DNA of 64,000 bases from Phaeovulum vinaykumarii. GTDB taxonomy: Bacteria; Pseudomonadota; Alphaproteobacteria; Rhodobacterales; Rhodobacteraceae. The notes beneath the pieces are model-generated. The model was not told the DNA's origin, ran no database searches, and saw nothing but the letters and a program-made list of their open reading frames with translations. Location of the stretch: contig NZ_FTOM01000003.1 in the NCBI RefSeq assembly GCF_900156695.1, positions 186,001-250,000 on the forward strand, in the 5' to 3' direction. Below are positions 2,448 to 36,906 of this stretch, in pieces; positions within the stretch are counted from its first letter, which is position 1, and each line of letters begins with the position of its first letter. Made by a program: the position numbers and the translations under genes.

Positions 2448-3392
<945 letters not shown>

Positions 3393-3394
3393 TC

Positions 3395-3410
3395 AGCAAG
3401 GGGCGTGCCA
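3395..3410 (-). promoter_or_regulatory. Sigma-54 (-24/-12) promoter of nifHDK
   Basis: On the minus strand the sequence reads TGGCACGCCCCTTGCT, a full match to the RpoN consensus TGGCAC-N5-TTGCW. It lies 72 bases upstream of the nifH start, which places transcription initiation about 12 bases further on and leaves a leader of about 60 bases. Confidence 0.92.
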
Positions 3411-3489
3411 AGTCTGAATGAAGTTATAATATCGTTTTATTTCATGGCTTTAAATCCAAGCGGTCCGGAAGGCATGCCTGTGCTGGAAA

Positions 3490-3505
3490 TGTGACGAACC
3501 CGACA
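3490..3505. promoter_or_regulatory. NifA upstream activator sequence
   Basis: TGTGACGAACCCGACA matches the NifA site TGT-N10-ACA exactly. It lies about 80 bases upstream of the -24/-12 element, the usual distance for a site acting by DNA looping. The nearest nif gene is nifH; the MATE gene on the other side is transcribed toward it, so nifHDK is the target. Confidence 0.8.
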
Positions 3506-3606
3506 ATTTGCCGACAAAAGCCGCCAAAGGGCCATATGTAGGGTGTCCGACCGTCAGACGGCGGGGATCAGGAGGCACTTTCGGGGGGCGCTTTCGGACG
3601 CGAATG

Positions 3607-4998
3607 TCAGGCGGGGACAGTCAGGCGGGGGCGCCAGAAGCGCCACATCAGCAGCACCGAGGCCGCCGCCAGCCCCAGCACCAGCCCCACCCAGAGACCC
3701 ACGCCCCCCAGCCCCAGCGGAAAGGCCAGCAGATAGCTGGCGGGGATCCCCACCAGCCAATAGGAAAAGGTGGCCAGCCACATCGGGCGGTTGGTGTCCT
3801 GCACCCCGCGCAAGAGGCCCAACCCCACGACCTGCATCGCGTCAAAGACCTGAAACGCCGCCGCCACGACCAGAAGCTTGACGCCAAAGGCGACAATCGC
3901 GGGGCTTTCGGGCGCCGACAGGTCCAGAAACAGCCCCACCAGGAAGCCCGGCACCAAAAGCAGCATCCCGATCAGCACGACACAGAGCGCAAGGCTCAGC
4001 ACGATGGCGGCCAGGCTTGCGTCGATCACCCCGCGCGCGTCGCCCCGCCCGTCGGCACGCCCCACCCGCACCGTGGCCGCCGCCGACAAGCCCATGTGCA
4101 ACATGAAGCCCATCGCCGTGATCTCGAGCGCGATGCCATGCGCGGCCAGCTCGATCGTGCCGATCCAGCCCATCATCAGCGCCGCGGCCTGGAACATGAA
4201 ACCCTCGGCCAGACCGGTGATCCCGATCGGCACCCCCAGCCGGAACAGCATCGCCATGCCTTCACGGTCGGGGCGCCAGAAGCGTGAAAATAGCGCAAAG
4301 CGGCGCAGCGCCGGCAGCCAGGCGGCATAGAGCGCCAGCGCCAACGCCCCGGTTGCCTGCACCACCACCGACGAAATGGCCGCCCCCCGCAGCCCCAGTT
4401 CGGGCGCACCCCAATGGCCGAAGATCAGCGCCCAGTTCAGCGCGATGTTGACGACAACGCCCCCCAGCGTGACCCACATCACCATCTGCGTGCGCTCGTT
4501 GGCCGACAGATAGCTCTTGAGCACCATGATGAAGAGCGCAGGCACCATGCCCCAGCCGGCAATGCGCAGATAGTCCTGCGCCAGCTCGGCGATCCGCGGT
4601 TCCTGCCCCCAGGCAACCAGGATCGGGCCGGAAAACCACATCACCGGCATGGTCAGAAGGCCATAGATCGCCGACAGCCACAGCCCCATGCGCACATCGC
4701 GGCGCACCTGGGTGTCGTCTTCACGGCCCAGCGCCGCGGCCACGCGCCCCAGCACCGCCACCCCGAAGCCCGAGCCCAGCACGAAAAGCGCAAAGAGCAT
4801 GGCCGCGCCCAGAACCACCGCGGCCAGTTCCGCAACCCCGTACCAGCCCAGCATGATCGTGTCGGTGACATGCAGCGACATCTGCGCCAGCTGGCTGCCC
4901 ATCAGGGGCAGGCCCAGCACCATCGTGGCGCGCAGATGCGCCGCGAAGGACACAGGCCGGGTCCGCGGCCCGGCAAGAGGATCAGGAAGCGTGCTCAT
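3607..4998 (-). CDS. MATE family multidrug/cation antiporter (NorM type)
   Basis: Inner-membrane exporter that expels organic cations and drugs using a Na+ or H+ gradient. The 463-aa protein is almost wholly hydrophobic with about 12 predicted helices in two MatE halves; typical MATE stretches include LPLMGSQLAQMSLHVTDTIM near the first helix and ALNWALIFGHWGAPELGLRG at the end of the first half. The start ATG at 4998 opens a short polar N-terminus before helix 1. It stands alone: its 3' end faces the nifH upstream region and the next gene upstream is a methyltransferase 116 bases away. The substrate cannot be read from the sequence. Confidence 0.93.
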   Translation of the reverse strand: MSTLPDPLAGPRTRPVSFAAHLRATMVLGLPLMGSQLAQMSLHVTDTIMLGWYGVAELAAVVLGAAMLFALFVLGSGFGVAVLGRVAAALGREDDTQVRRDVRMGLWLSAIYGLLTMPVMWFSGPILVAWGQEPRIAELAQDYLRIAGWGMVPALFIMVLKSYLSANERTQMVMWVTLGGVVVNIALNWALIFGHWGAPELGLRGAAISSVVVQATGALALALYAAWLPALRRFALFSRFWRPDREGMAMLFRLGVPIGITGLAEGFMFQAAALMMGWIGTIELAAHGIALEITAMGFMLHMGLSAAATVRVGRADGRGDARGVIDASLAAIVLSLALCVVLIGMLLLVPGFLVGLFLDLSAPESPAIVAFGVKLLVVAAAFQVFDAMQVVGLGLLRGVQDTNRPMWLATFSYWLVGIPASYLLAFPLGLGGVGLWVGLVLGLAAASVLLMWRFWRPRLTVPA

Positions 4999-12830: not shown

Positions 12831-12995
12831 GTGGCAGGTTTCTGCTCTTCTCGTGCGCGGCCCTATTCCGGTGGCCGATAAGCTTTCCGAGGGGGCTGGC
12901 TCTGGCGGGATCCTGGTCTCGTTATCTGGCGCCCACCTGATATGTTCAGGCTCTCGGGAATTTCACGCCGACACGGATGCTGCGGTTCCTGCCAC
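12831..12995 (+). ncRNA. Candidate structured RNA with 6S-like rod fold
   Basis: The 165 bases fold into one long rod. GTGGCAGG (12831-12838) pairs with CCTGCCAC (12988-12995). A near-symmetric internal loop of about 14 and 13 bases follows. Then come GTG/CAC (12853/12972), CGGC/GCCG (12858/12967), ATTCC/GGAAT (12865/12957), GGTGG/CCACC (12870/12933), GATAA/TTATC (12877/12922) and CGAG/CTCG (12888/12918). A promoter-like sequence sits at the right place upstream. Length, end-to-end closing stem and internal bubble match 6S RNA, the RNA polymerase holoenzyme regulator, but I did not find a decisive 6S sequence signature. It could instead be another regulatory RNA or a sufT leader element. Confidence 0.42.
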
Positions 12996-16216: not shown

Positions 16217-16347
16217 CACACCAGCCTCTCCCTCCAACATCTTGCATCTGACGCCTCCGCCCCTGGGCGGCTTGTGGTGCCGTTTCTCCTGAGCGCCGCG
16301 GCCGTGCGCAATCGCTTTGACCTTCCGGTGCGGGCCGGATAGGGTCG

Positions 16348-16420
16348 GTCTCGCCAGGGGCGCCGAAAGGCTGAGAAGCACCCTTTGAACCTGAACCGGA
16401 TAATGCCGGCGGAGGGAGAG
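16348..16420 (+). promoter_or_regulatory. TPP riboswitch (THI element)
   Basis: Thiamine pyrophosphate riboswitch. The conserved pyrimidine-sensing half GGCTGAGAAGCACCC and the second half CCCTTTGAACCTGAACCGG followed by ATAATGCCGGCGGAGGGA are present in order. It precedes a thiYZX-type transporter, which it should switch off when TPP is plentiful. The distance to the first start codon is unusually long, nearly 290 bases. Confidence 0.95.
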
Positions 16421-16583
16421 CACGGTCAGTCTGCGTTCGGTCGTTCGATCTGCGCGCACCGTCTTTCCCGCGCGGCGCGAGAGCACGATGACCGAAGACC
16501 TTCTGACAGACTTGCCCGCGCACCCCCCATCATCGGCACTGGCGGTGCGATCCGCATCGCCGCCGATCTGGTGCGGGCCGCGG

Positions 16584-27066: not shown

Positions 27067-30000
27067 ATGAAGATCGAACGCAAGTTCACGCAGGCAGAGA
27101 CCGGCGCATACGGCGGGATGGAATTCTCGGTCACGACCTCCGAGATCCGCAATCCCGACGGCAAGGTGGTGTTCCGCAACGACGCGGTCGAGGTGCCCGC
27201 GGGCTGGAGCCAGGTCGCCGCCGACGTGCTGGCGCAGAAATATTTCCGCAAGGCCGGCGTGCCGGCGCGCCTCAAGCGCGTGCGCGAAAAGGACGTGCCC
27301 GAATTCCTGTGGCGTTCGGTCCCCGACGAGGCCGCGCTGGCCGCGCTGCCCGAGGCCGATCGCTATGGCTCGGAAACCTCGGCGCGGCAGGTCTTCGACC
27401 GCATGGTCGGCGCCTGGACCTATTGGGGCTGGAAGGGGGGCTATTTCACCGCCGAAGCCGACGCCCGCGCCTATTACGACGAGATGCGGCACATGATGGC
27501 GCGCCAGATGGCGGCGCCGAACAGCCCGCAATGGTTCAACACCGGCCTGCATTGGGCCTATGGCATCGACGGGCCCAGCCAGGGCCATCATTACGTCGAT
27601 TACCGCACCGGCAAGCTGGTCAAGTCCGACAGCGCCTATGAACATCCCCAGCCGCATGCCTGCTTCATCCAGTCGGTCTCGGACGATCTGGTCAACGACG
27701 GCGGCATCATGGACCTGTGGGTGCGCGAGGCGCGGCTGTTCAAGTATGGCTCGGGCACCGGCACCAATTTCTCGGACCTGCGCGGCGAGGGCGAGCGCCT
27801 GTCGGGCGGCGGGCGGTCTTCGGGGCTGATGGGCTTTCTCAAGATCGGCGACCGCGCGGCCGGCGCCATCAAGTCGGGCGGCACCACGCGCCGCGCCGCC
27901 AAGATGGTGATCTGCGATCTCGACCACCCCGATATCGAACAATTCATCAACTGGAAGGTCATCGAGGAACAGAAGGTCGCCTCGCTGGTGGCGGGCTCGA
28001 AGATGCACGAGCGCCAGCTCAACGAGATCTTCGCCGCCATCCGCGGCTGGGACGGCGCCGTCGAGGATGCCACTGATCCGGCCCGCAACGCCGCGCTGAA
28101 GACCGCGATCCGCGCCGCCAAGAAGGCGATGATCCCCGAAACCTATGTCAACCGCGTGCTGCAATACGCCCGCCAGGGCTATTCCGCGATCGAATTCCCG
28201 ACCTATGACACCGACTGGGACAGCGAGGCCTATGTCTCGGTCTCGGGGCAGAATTCGAACAACTCGGTGCGCATCACCGATGCCTTCCTGCAAGCCGTGC
28301 GCGATGACGCCGACTGGGCGCTGATCCGCCGCACCGACGGCAGCGTGGCCAAGACCATCAAGGCGCGCGATCTGTGGGAACAGATCGGCCATGCCGCCTG
28401 GGCCTGCGCCGATCCGGGCGTGCAGTTCCACGACACGATCAACGCCTGGCACACCTGCCCCGAGGATGGCCAGATCCGCGGCTCGAACCCGTGTTCGGAA
28501 TACATGTTCCTCGACGACACGGCCTGCAACCTGGCGTCGATGAACCTGCTGACCTTCCTGCGCGACGGCGAATTCGACGCCGACGGCTATGTCCACGCCA
28601 CCCGGCTGTGGACGCTGACGCTGGAAATCAGCGTGATGATGGCGCAGTTCCCGTCCAGGGAAATCGCGCAGCGGTCCTATGATTTCCGCACGCTGGGCCT
28701 GGGCTATGCCAATATCGGCGGCCTGCTGATGACCATGGGCATGGGCTATGACAGCACCGAGGGCCGGGCGCTGTGTGGTGCGCTGAGCGCGATCATGACC
28801 GGCATCGCCTATGCCACCTCGGCCGAGATCGCCAAGGAGCTGGGCCCGTTTGCCGGCTATGAACGCAACGCCCAGCACATGCTGCGCGTGATCCGCAACC
28901 ACCGCGCCGCGGCCCATGACAGCGACACCTACGAAGGCGTGAATGTCACCCCGGTCCCGCTCGATGCCGCGCATTGCCCCGACGACCGTCTGGTGGCGCT
29001 GGCGCGCTCGGCCTGGGACGAGGCGCTGACCCTGGGCGAGGCGCATGGTTTCCGCAACGCGCAGGTCTCGGTGATCGCGCCCACCGGCACGATCGGTCTG
29101 GTGATGGATTGCGACACCACCGGCATCGAGCCCGATTTCGCGCTGGTCAAGTTCAAGAAGCTGGCCGGCGGCGGCTATTTCAAGATCATCAACCGTTCGG
29201 TGCCCGCGGCGCTGGCCACGCTGGGCTATCGCCCCGCCCAGATCGAGGAAATCGTGGCTTATGCGGTGGGTCACGGCACGCTGGGCAATTGCCCCGGCCT
29301 CAACCATTCGACGCTGGGCGCACAGGGCTTCGGCCCGGCCGAGATCGCCAGGATCGAAGCCGCGCTGCCCTCGGCCTTCGATATCCGCTTCGTCTTCAAC
29401 CAATGGACGCTGGGCGAGGACTTCTGCACGGGCACGCTGGGCATCCCGGCCGAGAAGCTGGCCGATCCCACCTTCGACCTGCTGCGTCACCTGGGCTATT
29501 CGCGCGCCCAGATCGACGCGGCCAATGACCATGTCTGCGGGACGATGACGCTGGAGGGTGCGCCCTTCCTCAAGCCCGAACATTACCCGGTCTTCGACTG
29601 CGCCAATGCCTGCGGCAAGACCGGCAAGCGCTATCTGTCGGTCGAGGCGCATATCCGCATGATGGCCGCGGCGCAGAGCTTCATCTCGGGCGCCATCTCC
29701 AAGACCATCAACATGGCCAATTCCGCCTCGATCGAGGATGTCAAATCGGCCTATGAGCTGAGCTGGAGCCTGGGCATCAAGGCCAACGCGCTTTACCGCG
29801 ACGGCTCGAAGCTGAGCCAGCCTCTGGCCGCGGCGCTGGTCGAGGACGACGAGGAGGCCGAGGAGATCCTGGCCACCGGCACCGCGCCCCAGAAGGCCGC
29901 CGTGCTGGCCGAGAAGATCGTCGAGAAGGTCATCGTCAAGGAAATCGTGCGCAGCCACCGCGAGAAGCTGCCCGAGCGCCGCAAGGGCTATACCCAGAAG

Positions 30001-30741
30001 GCGATCATCGGCGGCCACAAGGTCTATCTGCGCACCGGCGAATATGCCGATGGCAGCCTGGGCGAGATCTTCATCGACATGCACAAGGAAGGCGCGGGCT
30101 TCCGGGCGATGATGAACAACTTTGCCATCGCGGTGTCGGTGGGCCTGCAATATGGCGTGCCGCTCGAGGAATTCGTCGATGCCTTCACCTTCACCAAGTT
30201 CGAGCCCTCGGGCGTGGTGCAGGGCAATGACTCGATCAAGAACGCGACCTCGATCCTTGATTATGTGTTCCGCGAACTGGCGGTCAGCTATCTCGACCGC
30301 ACCGACCTGGCGCATGTGACGCCCAAGGGCGCGCGCTTCGACGAGCTGGGCGGCGGCGAGGGCGAAGGCCGGCCGAACGTGGCCGAAGTGTCCGACCGCA
30401 CGGCGTCGAAATCGCTTGAGGTGCTGCGCCAGATCTCGTCCTCGGGCTATCTGCGCAAGCGCCTGCCCAAGGAACTGGTGGTGCTTCAGGGCGGCCAGGG
30501 CAGCCAGGGCGACCCGGTCAGCGCGCTGAACATGCTGGTGCCGGAAACCGCCGGCAGCGCCGTTGCCGTGGCCGGGGCCACCGCGCTCAGCTCGGGGGTC
30601 GTGACGATGGATGCGCGCGCCAAGGCCAAGATGCAGGGCTACGAGGGCGAGGCCTGCGGCGAATGCGGCAACTACACGCTGGTGCGCAACGGCACCTGCA
30701 TGAAGTGCAACACCTGCGGCGCCACCTCGGGCTGCAGCTGA
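27067..30741 (+). CDS. nrdJ: Vitamin B12-dependent ribonucleotide reductase (class II)
   Basis: Adenosylcobalamin-dependent reductase that makes deoxynucleotides with or without oxygen. The 1224-aa length is that of the long proteobacterial form. Active-site landmarks are [42 protein letters not shown], the [20 protein letters not shown] block and [20 protein letters not shown]. The C-terminus is a zinc-like Cys tail ending [14 protein letters not shown] after [13 protein letters not shown], used for re-reduction. The ATG at 27067 ([17 protein letters not shown]) is the family start; the frame is open further upstream but not conserved. It depends on B12, and the next genes to the right concern cobalamin. 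Confidence 0.98.
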
Positions 30742-32061: not shown

Positions 32062-32177
32062 GGCATGTCCGCAGCCCCCCCCGCCACCGGACAGCCCCGA
32101 CCGCGGCAGCGTGTGTGGGGAGGGAATTTCGGGCCGCCGGGCTTGACCTTCGGGGGCTTTGCACGACATTGGGGGAG

Positions 32178-32337
32178 CTTTGGTGCCCCCGGTTCGCGGG
32201 GGTGAAAAGGGAAGCCGGTGCAGATCCGGCGCTGCCCCCGCAACTGTGAGCGGCGAGGCCCCCTCCGATTGCCACTGGCCGCGAAAGGGCCGGGAAGGCG
32301 GAGCGGGCCCCTGACCCGCAAGCCAGGAGACCTGCCA
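32178..32337 (+). promoter_or_regulatory. Cobalamin (AdoCbl) riboswitch
   Basis: All main parts of the B12 element are visible in order: GCTTTGGTGCC, GTGAAAAGGGAAGCCGGTG with AGATCCGGC, the B12-binding block GCTGCCCCCGCAACTGT, then GCCACTGGCC, GGGAAGGCGG, and the closing CAAGCCAGGAGACCTGCC. About 108 bases later the Cys-rich gene begins. A GC-only hairpin GGGGCGCG/CGCGCCCC near 32381-32400 lies between and may be part of the switch. Confidence 0.96.
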
Positions 32338-32445
32338 GGGCATGACGGTCACCCCCGGACGACGGGTCCGAAGACCGGGTCGGGGCGCGCGGCGCGCCCC
32401 CTGCCCGCCTTCGCCGCCCTTCGGCCAGCGGCGCGGAGGAAGCCC

Positions 32446-32781
32446 ATGGAGCCCAAGGATCTGACGAAGAACGAAGCTTTCAAGGGCTTCACCAATGCCG
32501 AATGCCCCTTTCACCCCTGCCACGAGGGGGTGAAGCGCGAATTCAACTGCCTGTTCTGCTATTGCCCGCTGATCGCCTATGAATGCCCCGGCCCCTATCA
32601 GGTGTTCACCGGCTCGAACGGCGTGGTGCGCAAGGATTGCTCGGCCTGCACGCTGCCGCATGACGGCTATCAGCAATCTTGGAACTTCATCCAGAAATGG
32701 CTGGATTATCCCGTGGTCTGGAAGGGCCAGCCGCAGACCGATCCGCCGCGCGCCCGTCCCCGCCCCGAAGGCGCCGCCTGA
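32446..32781 (+). CDS. Cysteine-rich small domain protein under B12 riboswitch control
   Basis: A 111-aa protein whose core carries eight cysteines: C20, C25, C35, C38, C40, C47, C65 and C68, in segments such as AECPFHPCHEG, NCLFCYCPLIAYECPG and KDCSACTLPHDGY. This is the Cys-rich small domain family (PF04071-like), often found near cobalamin genes, with no established function; metal or Fe-S binding is likely from the Cys spacing. GCGGAGGAAG precedes the ATG. The cobalamin riboswitch directly upstream shows that its expression follows B12 status. It is convergent with cobQ, so it does not share a transcript with it. Confidence 0.85.
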   Translation: MEPKDLTKNEAFKGFTNAECPFHPCHEGVKREFNCLFCYCPLIAYECPGPYQVFTGSNGVVRKDCSACTLPHDGYQQSWNFIQKWLDYPVVWKGQPQTDPPRARPRPEGAA

Positions 32782-32990
32782 CACCGGCGCCCGCCCCCCC
32801 TTATCCGAAGACCGCGGGGCGCGCGCGCGCGCGCGTCCGTGCCCCCGCCACCCGCCGCGCATTCCCCCACTTTGGCGGGCGCGTCCGTGCCGGAACGGGG
32901 CGGCGCCGGCGACCGCGGCTGCAAGGGGGCAGCGGTGAGGGGGGTGGCGGCAAGGGGGGGGGGCCGCGGCAAGGCGCCCCCGGCGCGCCT

Positions 32991-34514
32991 TCAGCTCCGG
33001 GGCGGGCGGGCCAGCGCCCAGAGCCGGTCCAGATCCAGATCGGCGGCGATGTCATCGGCCAGCCGGTCGAGCGCGGTCTCGATCCGCGTCTCGAAGGCCG
33101 TTTGCGCCCCCACGCCCAGGGGCGCAAGCCAGGCCGCGCGGAAGGCGTCCGACGCGAAAAGCCCGTGCAGATAGCACCCCGCGACCCGCCCGTCGGCCGA
33201 GACCGCGCCCGCATCGCGCCCATCCAGCCGCAGGAAGGGGCGCGCGCGGTCGGGGCCCGTTGTGCGGCCCATGTGCATCTCATAGCCCGCGAGCGCGGCG
33301 CCGCTCAGCCCGTCGCGCGCCGCGATCCGTTCGAGACGCTTCTCGCCCGTCAACACGGTCTCGACCCTCAGAAGACCCAGCCCCGCATCCTGCCCCGGCG
33401 CGCCCTCGATCCCCTGCGGGTCGGCGATGACCTGCCCCAGCATCTGATAGCCGCCGCAGATGCCCAGCACCCGCCCGCCCTGCCGGTGATGGGCCAGGAT
33501 GTCGATATCCCAGCCTTCGGCGCGCAGCGTGGCCAGATCGGCGCGCGTGGCCTTGGAGCCCGCCAGCACGATCACATCGGCGCGCGGCAGCGGCGCGCCG
33601 CGGCGGGCAAAGATCACCTCAAGCCCCGGTTCGGCGGCCAGCGGGTCCAGATCGTCGAAATTGGCAATCCGCGGCAGTTCGGGGACCACGATGCGCAGCC
33701 GCGCGCCCGTGCGCCGCCCGGCGCGGGCCAGGCCAAGGCTGTCTTCCTCGGGCAGGGCGCGCGCGGCCTCGGACCAGCGCAGAAGCCCCAGCAAAGGCCA
33801 GCCGGTTGCCGCCTCGATCTCCTGCGCGGCGGGGGCAAAGATCGCCGGATCGCCGCGGAACTTGTTGACCAGAACGCCCACGACACGGGCGCGTTCGGAG
33901 GCGCTCCAGAGCAGGTGATGGCCCAGCACCGCCGCCGTGACGCCCCCGCGGGACTCGTCGCCCAGCAGCACGACCGGCAGATCGGCGCTTTCGGCCAGCC
34001 CCATGTTCGAGATGTCCTGCGCGCGCAGATAGCGTTCGCCCCCCGAGCCCGCGCCCTCGATCAGCACCAGGTCGCGCCCCGTCCCCAGCCGGTTCAGCGC
34101 CGCCCGCACCGCCGGACGCAGGCCGGGCTTGAGCGCCTGATATTCCGCCGCCGAATGCCGCCCCAGCACCTTGCCCGACAGCACCACCTGCGCATCGACA
34201 TCGGTCTCGGGCTTCAGCAGCACCGGGTTCATGTCCACCAGCGGCGCCAGCCCGCAGGCCCGCGCCTGAAGCGCCTGCGCCCGCCCGATCTCGCCGCCGT
34301 CCTGGGTGACGGCGGCATTGTTGGACATGTTCTGCGCCTTGAAGGGCGCGACCTTCAGCCCGCGGCGCGCAAAGGCCCGGCAGAGCCCGGCCACGATCAG
34401 GCTCTTGCCGACATCCGAGCCCGTGCCCATCACCATCAGGCGCCGGGCGGGCCCCGCGCCTGAGCGGCCCAGATCCGAGCGGCCCGGATCCGAGCGTCCC
34501 GCGTCCGAGGTCAT
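32991..34514 (-). CDS. cobQ: Cobyric acid synthase, paralogue 1
   Basis: Glutamine-dependent amidase that converts cobyrinic acid a,c-diamide (adenosylated) to cobyric acid. The 507-aa protein has the N-terminal dethiobiotin-synthase-like domain with P-loop [17 protein letters not shown] (about residues 30-46) and [20 protein letters not shown], and a C-terminal glutaminase with the nucleophile in [10 protein letters not shown] and the His in GCYLHGLF. The usual DRGG after strand 4 reads [10 protein letters not shown], with Ser in place of Asp. Its start overlaps the stop of a second cobQ (ATGA at 34511-34514). A repetitive N-terminus ([16 protein letters not shown]) precedes the P-loop domain. 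Confidence 0.93.
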
Positions 34515-36085
34515 TGCGCCAGCGCCAGCAGCGCGTCGAGATCGAGCGAGGCCTCGACATGATCGGCAAGTGCGTCGAGCGTGGCCTCGACCTGGGCCTC
34601 GTAATCCAGCCCCGAGACCGCCGCGCCCAGCCCCGACAGCCAGTGCCGGCGGAAGCTGTCCGAGCCGAAGAGCCCGTGCACATAGCAGCCCGACACATGC
34701 CCGTCGGCCGAGATCGCGCCCTCGGGGCGGCCGTCCAGCATCAGCCAGGGCCGGGTCAACCCCGCGCCGCTGCTGCGGCCCATGTGGATCTCGTAGCCGC
34801 GCACCTCGGTCCCCGACAGGCTGTCCTGCGCGCAGATCTCGGTCAGGCGTTTCTCGGGCGTGATCGTGGTCTCGATGTCCAGAAGGCCGAGGCCCGGCGT
34901 CACCCCCGGCTCGCCCTCGATGCCCTCGGGGTCGCGGACCAGACGGCCCAGCATCTGGAAACCGGCGCAGATCCCCACGACGCGGCCGCCGCGGCGCAGA
35001 TGGGTGCGGATGTCGCCATCCCAGCCTTCGGCGCGCAGCGACTCCAGATCGGCGCGCGTGGTCTTCGAGCCGGGCAGAAGCACCACGTCGGCCTCGGGGA
35101 TCGGGGTGCCGGGGCGCACCAGGATCAGCTCGACCCCCGGTTCGGCGCGCAACGGATCGAGATCGTCGAAATTGGCGATCCGGCCCAGTTGCGGGACCGC
35201 AACGCGCAGCCCCTGCCCGCCCTCCGAAAGGTTGCGCGCCAGAGCCAGCGAATCCTCGGCCGGCAGCAGGGCCGCGGCATCGAACCACGGCACCACCCCC
35301 AGAAGCGGCCAGCCGGTGTGTTCCGTCATCACCTTGCAGCCGGGTTCATAGAGCGAGAAATGCCCGCGGAACTTGTTGACGATATAGCCCTTGACGCGGG
35401 CGCGCTCGGCCTCGTCGTGCAGAAGCCAGCTGCCCACCACCGCCGCCAGCGCGCCGCCGCGGTCGTTGTCGGTCAGAAGGACGACCGGAAGATCGGCCTC
35501 CAGCGCCAGCTTCATGTTGGTGATGTCGCAATGGCGCAGATGGACCTCGGTCGCAGCGCCCGCCCCCTCGACCAGCACCAGATCGGCGTCACGCGCCACG
35601 CGGGCGAAGCTGTCCAGCACCGCGGGCATCAGATGCGGCTTGAGGTGGTGATATTCGCGCGCCGGCCAATTGCCCAGCGGCCGGCCGCGCAGCACCACCT
35701 GCGAGCCCACGCCCGATTGCGGCTTGAGCAGGACCGGATTCATGTGGATCGAGGCCGGCAGCCCGCAGGCCCGCGCCTGAAGCGCCTGGGCGCGCCCGAT
35801 CTCGCCGCGCGGGGGGGGCGGCGCATCGGGGCCGGGCGCGGGCGGCAGGTCGCTGTCGGCCGAGACGGCGGCATTGTTGGACATGTTCTGCGCCTTGAAG
35901 GGCGCGACCTTCAGCCCGCGGCGCGCATAGGCCCGGCAGAGCCCCGCCACCAGCAGCGACTTGCCCACATCCGAGCTGGTGCCCTGGATCATCAGCGCGC
36001 GCGCCTTGCGCGGCCGGGCCTCGTGGAACGCGCTCAGGTCAAGATCATCGAGCGAGGGGATCGGGCGGGTCGTTTCAGACGTCAT
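34511..36085 (-). CDS. cobQ: Cobyric acid synthase, paralogue 2
   Basis: A second complete CobQ, 524 aa, directly upstream of the first and translationally coupled to it. It shares the P-loop ([17 protein letters not shown]), [32 protein letters not shown], the glutaminase nucleophile in [10 protein letters not shown] and the His in GCYVHGLF. It keeps the canonical [11 protein letters not shown] where paralogue 1 has a Ser. It carries a Pro-rich insert ([15 protein letters not shown]) after the SNNAA segment and differs strongly elsewhere, so the pair is not a recent duplication. The ATG at 36085 was chosen ([10 protein letters not shown]); 36094 is also possible. Confidence 0.93.
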
Positions 36086-36906
36086 CGGAGCCATCTTCGG
36101 GGCGCGCCGGGGCGGCAAGGCCGGGCGCGGCGGTTATGGGAACAGTGGGCGGGGGCTTTGCGGGCGGTGTGTGCCGCGGGCGGGGGCCCGTTCCGGGGCG
36201 CGCAGGCCGGCGTCATCCCCGCGCGCGGACGGACAGGCGCGCAGGCGCCGCCATGCGCAGCGGCACCGCAGGACACGGCGGCAGGGCAGGAACGGATCTG
36301 GTCATGTGGTCTTCACCCGAGACAAGTGACGGAACGGGCACGGCCGGCACCGGAAGCGGCCCGGCCCGCGGGCCCCCCGCCCGTGGACATTGCTGCCGAA
36401 GTCCGCGCCGCCGGGAAACCCGGCCCGTGCCATGTCGGGCGCGGCCCGACCCACAGGACCGGGGCGGGCCCGTGTCATCTGCCGCCCTGCGCACGGGCAG
36501 CGGATCGGCCGTCCTGGCCGCGGCCATGCGTCGGGCCCTTGCAGGACAGGGCGCCCTTCGAGCGCGCCCGTTCTATCAAAGCGGCCCGGCCTGTCCATCC
36601 CAAAAGAAGGGCGGTCCCGCAGGCGTGATCCGCGCCGCCCCGTCGCGCCCCCCGTCGCGCCCCCCCGTCGCGCCCCCCGTCGCGCGCCCCGTCCTTCGCG
36701 GGCGCCCCGTCCTTCGCGCGAGCCCGGCCTTCGCCCGCACACCGCGTTCCGGGGCCCCGCACCGCCCGCCGCCGCGGGACTTTGCAAGACCCTGCGCATT
36801 TGCTAGATTTATCCACAAGGTGCCACCAAGGCGCCACCGGCCGGGCAACGTCCCGCCCGACCCGAGCAGATCGGGCCCCCGCGGCCCCGAAGACAGGACA
36901 GGCGAA
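36086..36906. other. 821-base intergenic region between divergent cobQ and Hint genes
   Basis: No protein gene is supported on either strand; the open frames are arginine/proline-rich and lack ribosome sites. No cobalamin riboswitch could be found ahead of cobQ on the minus strand. The region contains a GC-only tandem repeat (36638-36720) and a perfect DnaA-type 9-mer TTATCCACA at 36809-36817, about 90 bases before the Hint gene. The stretch TTTGCTAGATTTATCCACAA is the most AT-rich part and may hold the promoter of the Hint gene. Confidence 0.65.
36638..36720 (+). repeat. Degenerate GC tandem repeat (CCCCGTCGCGCC family)
   Basis: About four copies of CCCCGTCGCGCC with 12-13 bp period are followed by two copies of CGCCCCGTCCTTCGCG. 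The array lies in the middle of the gap between cobQ and the Hint gene, outside any gene. Confidence 0.8.

Follow-up and report, generated by a model that had tools for sequence, protein, structure and literature searches.

An old and conserved pair of cobQ genes, overlapping in Phaeovulum vinaykumarii and shared with distant purple bacteria

The window analysed here, a stretch of 64,000 nucleotides from contig NZ_FTOM01000003.1 of Phaeovulum vinaykumarii, contains two overlapping genes for cobyric acid synthase, which we term cobQ type A (upstream) and cobQ type B (downstream). The A/B pair is a variant of the known CobQ family that is real, old and conserved. A special role of the pair is likely. 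In purple bacteria its CobQ lineage often lies beside bchE, the gene for the B12-dependent anaerobic cyclase of bacteriochlorophyll synthesis, a gene order that hints at a module specialised in making B12 for anaerobic photosynthesis. The reading we prefer, with a probability of roughly 55%, is that CobQ-A and CobQ-B form a coupled module for phototrophic, B12-limited growth, in which A is competent alone and B is a specialised partner.

Two complete and overlapping cobQ genes

The original prediction of two intact cobQ genes with a four-base overlap was confirmed: both lie on the same strand, share an ATGA, and encode products, P0001 (type A) and P0002 (type B), that match CobQ models and have the same domains (Table 1). 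Both products exceed the cut-off of 273 bits of the first NCBIfam CobQ model, which they match over nearly its full length, and reach 420.7 and 403.5 bits with the second (cut-off 309.9). A CbiA-type ATP domain is followed by a GATase_3 domain in P0001 and P0002 alike, and residue alignment bore out that the P-loop Lys and the glutaminase Cys and His are retained in both. Within the window, A and B are approximately 60% identical. The pair thus resembles CobQ/CbiP (TIGR00313, NF001989) in that it matches over the full length, has its domains in the same order and retains the P-loop and the Cys and His of the glutaminase. It differs in forming a lineage of its own, in the changes Asn140 to Tyr/His and Pro38 to Ala, in an altered Gly150 (A) or Asp166 (B), and in being present as tandem copies.

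Two other identities were rejected. With the CobB model NF002204 the proteins score 52.8 and 56.2 bits, under the cut-off of 254, and P0002 reaches 19.6 bits with the GatD model (cut-off 400), for which P0001 has no listed match. A PDB sequence search with P0002 gave no match at 0.001, and a PDB profile search returned ten partial matches up to E 1, of which the best four are of GatD type. The AlphaFold models of both proteins are poor (mean pLDDT 54.0 and 52.9; shallow alignments of 4 and 6 rows). A promoter/terminator scan of positions 32700-36700 gave no match.

Table 1. Features of the cobQ locus, in positions of the window.
Feature	Position	Strand	Basis or remark
Cobalamin riboswitch ahead of PF04071 gene	32164-32353	plus	RF00174, 137.8 bits, gathering score 31.5
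Cys-rich small domain gene (PF04071), convergent with the pair	32446-32781	plus	49.6 bits, cut-off 27; recurs near the pair's CobQ lineage
cobQ type B (downstream copy, P0002, 507 aa)	32991-34514	minus	ORF and translation, NCBIfam CobQ 591.6 bits, tree
Ser188 of B, for second Asp of DxDRGG (Asp166)	33951-33953	minus	Ala/Ser in 19/19 B
Tyr162 of B, for Asn140	34029-34031	minus	Tyr in 19/19 B, Asn in 113/113 ordinary
ATGA, stop of A and start of B	34511-34514	minus	sequence; overlap recurs in 7/7 Rhodobacterales pairs
cobQ type A (upstream copy, P0001, 524 aa)	34511-36085	minus	ORF and translation, NCBIfam CobQ 607.9 bits, tree
Lys192 of A, for Gly150	35510-35512	minus	Lys/Arg/His/Leu/Tyr in 29/29 A-like
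His182 of A, site equivalent to Tyr162 of B	35540-35542	minus	Tyr 24, His 5 of 29 A-like

The pair comes on top of an ordinary cobQ

That CobQ is normally single-copy holds in our sample: at E 1e-40, 36 of 60 other genomes have exactly one match and 24 have none. Here, however, the pair is found in addition to a third, ordinary and full-length CobQ (G000:C23:859802-861241, corresponding to L006 9802-11241, minus strand), which is one of five places in the genome that match PF07685. This protein is 55-57% identical to the A/B pair and clusters in the trees with the ordinary CobQ of Rhodobacterales; a cobN gene lies approximately 2.5 kb from it. In one Rhodobacterales genome, G091, only the A/B pair and no ordinary copy was found at E 1e-60.

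As a separate observation, the ordinary CobQ of the window genome is changed at 14 of 274 otherwise invariant columns and may be under relaxed constraint; in the five further pair genomes with an ordinary copy, 0 to 6 of these columns are changed.

Types A and B trace back to one old duplication

In a first survey, a scan of named genomes (best 80 of at least 581 loci; quick tree of 114 rows), both window proteins fall in a clade of 17 rows. Among the matches listed, this clade comprises Ectothiorhodospira, Halorhodospira, Rubrivivax, Chromatiaceae, a Chromatiales MAG, Rhodoblastus, Rhodopseudomonas and one Chloroflexaceae MAG. The genera named are anoxygenic phototrophs. In a more careful tree of 67 rows, which left out L196 (no suitable open frame) and the ordinary copy of G284, types A and B together form 48 rows with a support of 100/99, and ordinary CobQ falls outside. 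Type B is a clade of 19 rows (100/99), and type A with the single copies groups 29 rows at 94/84, which is under the starred level; G062 and G862 contribute identical type A rows. According to this tree, the pair derives from one old duplication into A and B. A recent local duplication was ruled out, as A and B each cluster with counterparts from other orders.

We then surveyed 390 Rhodobacterales genomes with a profile built from four B-type proteins (E 1e-195). Seven contain both A and B, always with the -4 overlap (the window counted); since the same overlap is seen in all seven, it exceeds chance. Five more genomes gave one weaker match each, in every case to a single CobQ that is 63-71% identical to the ordinary copy. 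Both types are moreover found in 10/47 genomes of the order of Ectothiorhodospira and in 1/399 genomes of the order of Rubrivivax, namely Rubrivivax itself. Because Rubrivivax groups with the Rhodobacterales in both halves of the tree (8 rows each; 100/99 for A, 100/98 for B), the pair has probably moved as a unit. The types also occur singly: five Chromatiales genomes have a single type A gene as their sole CobQ and no type B, and in Halorhodospira (G061) it is type A that is missing and type B that is present.

Of the 149 plasmid records that gave a match, three fall at 60-80% identity, all of them from Cereibacter and with two places each. The pair on pORIO2 of Cereibacter azotoformans (NZ_CP089968.1) shares with the window the A-B order, the 4-base overlap and the convergent Cys-rich gene, and is 77% (A) and 70% (B) identical to the window pair. 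Unlike the window, pORIO2 is a plasmid typed as conjugative and has a riboswitch and cobB upstream of the pair, which is annotated merely as two cobyric acid synthases. On the Cereibacter plasmid p.B, a cobB that seems to be shortened lies ahead of the pair; its match is split into two pieces that overlap. pORIO2 also carries six cobalamin riboswitches in approximately 12 kb, arranged as three divergent pairs (L244 2200-2965, 8470-9015 and 14009-14474). Our literature searches on cobQ paralogues, bchE-cobQ and metal-free corrins, at the level of titles and abstract starts among the matches listed, found no description of the A/B tandem pair.

Residue changes that mark the two types

Residues were counted over 29 A-like, 19 B and 113 ordinary rows (among the last, one gene of G076 is doubled, as L113 and L143) and are numbered by the window genome's own ordinary CobQ. 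The P-loop Lys and Lys59, Glu153, Asp167, Cys353 and His450 (B numbering) are retained in 48/48 rows of the pair's lineage. Two changes mark the lineage as a whole: Asn140 is replaced by Tyr or His in 48/48 rows, and Pro38 by Ala in 48/48 rows (ordinary rows: P 110, A 3). Two others set the types apart. Gly150, altered throughout the A-like rows (Table 1), is Gly in 19/19 B and 111/113 ordinary rows. Asp166, in turn, is Asp in 29/29 A-like rows and in 102 of the 113 ordinary ones (E 7, H 3, N 1), and the change of Asp to Ser in the DRGG loop that had been predicted proved to be real (S188 of P0002) and, as Ala or Ser, a fixed trait of type B. This second Asp of the DxDRGG loop is common in CobQ/CbiP but does not strictly define the family. 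Paralogue 1 of that prediction, with DESRGG for DxDRGG, is type B; its paralogue 2, with the Pro-rich insert, is type A. Asp145, which lies between Asn140 and Gly150, is invariant in all rows. We take it to be the equivalent of Asp146 of Salmonella CbiP, whose change to Asn reportedly disturbs the sequence of the four amidations; if so, the CobQ-A/B lineage would have altered the surroundings of the residue that controls amidation order.

In nine pairs of genomes, dN/dS is 0.03-0.22 for A and 0.09-0.27 for B, with B above A in 8/9; four of the pairs also have an ordinary copy, for which the ratio is 0.11-0.33. These ratios indicate purifying selection on both types in the relatives. No decay of a window copy was seen, and neither A nor B shows an excess of changes at conserved columns: window A is changed at 5/243 columns that are invariant in the other 17 A rows (other Rhodobacterales A: 1 to 7), and window B at 5/195 columns invariant in the other 17 B rows (other Rhodobacterales B: 0 to 6).

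The separate roles proposed in the original prediction would sit badly with a copy that is not conserved in relatives. This outcome was not seen, both types being retained in distant orders, and separate roles thus gain indirect support from the old duplication, the joint retention, the type-specific fixed changes and dN/dS values well below 1. The Pro-rich insert, on the other hand, is no sign of specialisation. It is real in P0001 and missing from the window's B copy, but a similar insert belongs to the consensus of six A-type proteins and occurs in 2/4 B-type proteins, so that it is common to relatives.

The scores far above the CobQ cut-offs and the retained catalytic residues would fit plain redundancy, with A and B both ordinary CobQ enzymes of equal activity that are kept for flux or dosage. 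We consider this unlikely in view of the fixed type-specific changes, the divergence of A and B to about 60% identity, and their joint retention in distant orders. The loss of Asp166 in 19/19 B rows, together with the coupling by overlap in 7/7 Rhodobacterales pairs, could also point to a heteromer, in which B, with weak activity or none, would serve to stabilise or tune its partner A. This is highly improbable: the other catalytic residues are retained in 19/19 B, Asp166 varies in some ordinary CobQ too, Halorhodospira has B in the absence of A, and A and B are kilobases apart in 3/10 genomes of the Ectothiorhodospira order.

Gene neighbourhood and the link to BchE

In the order of Ectothiorhodospira, bchE lies directly upstream of A in 10/10 pair genomes; A and B are spaced by no more than 0.1 kb in seven of these and by 2.1 to 5.9 kb in three, and a gene for a Cys-rich PF04071 protein is found within the fetched stretch in seven. 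The single type A gene of the Chromatiales is at most 1.6 kb from bchE in 5/5 genomes, some of which are drafts. Among the Rhodobacterales pairs, only that of G091 is near bchE, which lies approximately 1.1 kb upstream with an opposite-strand frame in between. Anywhere in the genome, bchE is present in 7/7 Rhodobacterales pair genomes vs 90/390 overall (Fisher 2.9e-5; 0.003 by genus, with five pair genera), a comparison in which G091 is not independent, its only bchE match being the one near the pair. BchE scores over the cut-off in 14/15 tested genomes with the pair's CobQ lineage, the window genome included, the exception among the matches listed being the MAG G072; G064 and G066, which have ordinary CobQ only, show no BchE over the cut-off. 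What counts against the link is that no bchE lies within the 64-kb window, the bchE of this genome being on another contig.

Cobalamin riboswitches recur around the pair. In G422, G371 and pORIO2, a cobalamin riboswitch is followed by cobB, A and B (with an extra frame between riboswitch and cobB in G371), and in three genomes of genus g163 a riboswitch and cbiM are divergent from the pair; for one of these genomes cbiQ was confirmed as well. No riboswitch was found ahead of the cobQ pair of the window, where, as in G371 and pORIO2, one precedes the convergent PF04071 gene. The PF04071 protein may be part of the same pathway as the pair. Among 14 control genomes, its gene was seen in only two, both methanogens.

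A few kilobases from the riboswitch and the pair, the window encodes a B12 user, the B12-dependent ribonucleotide reductase (27067-30738, plus strand; NF005736, 2227.6 bits). Other RNA elements in the window are a TPP riboswitch (16346-16435, plus strand, 59.1 bits) and a 6S RNA (12836-12992, plus strand) whose 46.6 bits are barely above the cut-off of 46.4. In Halorhodospira abdelmalekii, a HEARO RNA (L180 10684-10911, plus strand) lies approximately 1.7 kb from the type B cobQ. Rhodoblastus sphagnicola has a cobalamin riboswitch (L184 2075-2269, plus strand) upstream of its second, cobQ-linked bchE (2548-4155, plus strand). Cobalamin riboswitches commonly repress when B12 is present, and this arrangement is odd because BchE itself needs B12.

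Metal-free corrins as possible substrates

CobN is the late cobalt chelatase. At E 1e-150 it was found in 6/7 Rhodobacterales pair genomes (missing from G091) and in 7/10 pair genomes of the Ectothiorhodospira order, vs 0/37 other genomes of that order. Late cobalt insertion was considered as an explanation of the pair, with a mixed result: besides these counts, CobN was found in 0/5 Chromatiales, and Rubrivivax has a part match only, below this cut-off.

A further reading is that the pair's lineage is adapted to cobalt-free or non-adenosylated corrins, with A and B amidating hydrogenobyrinic acid a,c-diamide, or a corrin close to it, ahead of cobalt insertion or in the absence of cobalt. The altered Asn140 in 48/48 lineage rows and the cobB and cobalt uptake genes beside several pairs are in line with it. 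Moreover, according to excerpts of the respective papers, a cobQ from a purple sulfur bacterium yields hydrogenobyric acid in E. coli (PMC6771967), and hydrogenobalamin was isolated from Chromatium (PMC7693184, PMC5103170). Since the CobQ proteins examined from Chromatiales (5/5 genomes) all belong to the pair's lineage, this lineage may accept metal-free corrins. The excerpt of PMC6771967 gives the source as a purple sulfur bacterium, without a species name; the gene is probably a single-copy type A gene of the pair's lineage and would differ from the pair in that the five Chromatiales genomes lack a type B partner. CobN is, however, absent at E 1e-150 from 5/5 Chromatiales and from 4 of the 17 pair genomes of Rhodobacterales and the Ectothiorhodospira order, and we hold an adaptation of this kind to be quite unlikely. 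A stronger version appears very doubtful, namely that in phototrophs the two enzymes CobQ-A and CobQ-B together form an amidation unit for corrins that lack cobalt or are non-standard in another way, with a shifted regiochemistry of B. If it were true, the unit would explain where the metal-free corrinoids described in purple bacteria come from, and B12 synthesis would have a branch that is independent of cobalt and tied to BchE.

A proposed module of CobQ-A and CobQ-B

In the translationally coupled module that we favour, A and B would both be amidoligases that use ATP and glutamine to complete the side chains of the corrin. This is what CobQ is known to do, by amidation of side chains b, d, e and g. 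A would be a complete enzyme for this reaction, because it is the sole CobQ in five Chromatiales genomes and because in G091 the pair is all there is. B, made in step with A through the gene overlap, would be a specialised partner that either carries out some of the four amidations or acts on a variant corrin. At B12 shortage the module would raise the supply of cobyric acid, chiefly to the benefit of BchE and other B12 enzymes in cells that grow anaerobically in the light, and the ordinary cobQ would remain with the main pathway. The link to BchE fits because this enzyme needs cobalamin, a requirement stated in excerpts of PMC7242693 and PMC3150298. The genomes with A alone count against the module, as B would appear to be dispensable there for the full CobQ reaction. 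Further points against it are the negative search for a riboswitch ahead of the window pair, the presence of bchE near just one of the seven Rhodobacterales pairs, the support of 94/84 for type A as one clade, and the solitary type B of Halorhodospira.

CobQ is treated as one enzyme for four amidations. The diverged pair is natural material for asking how one active site deals with four side chains, and also from which enzyme the metal-free corrinoids described in purple bacteria originate.
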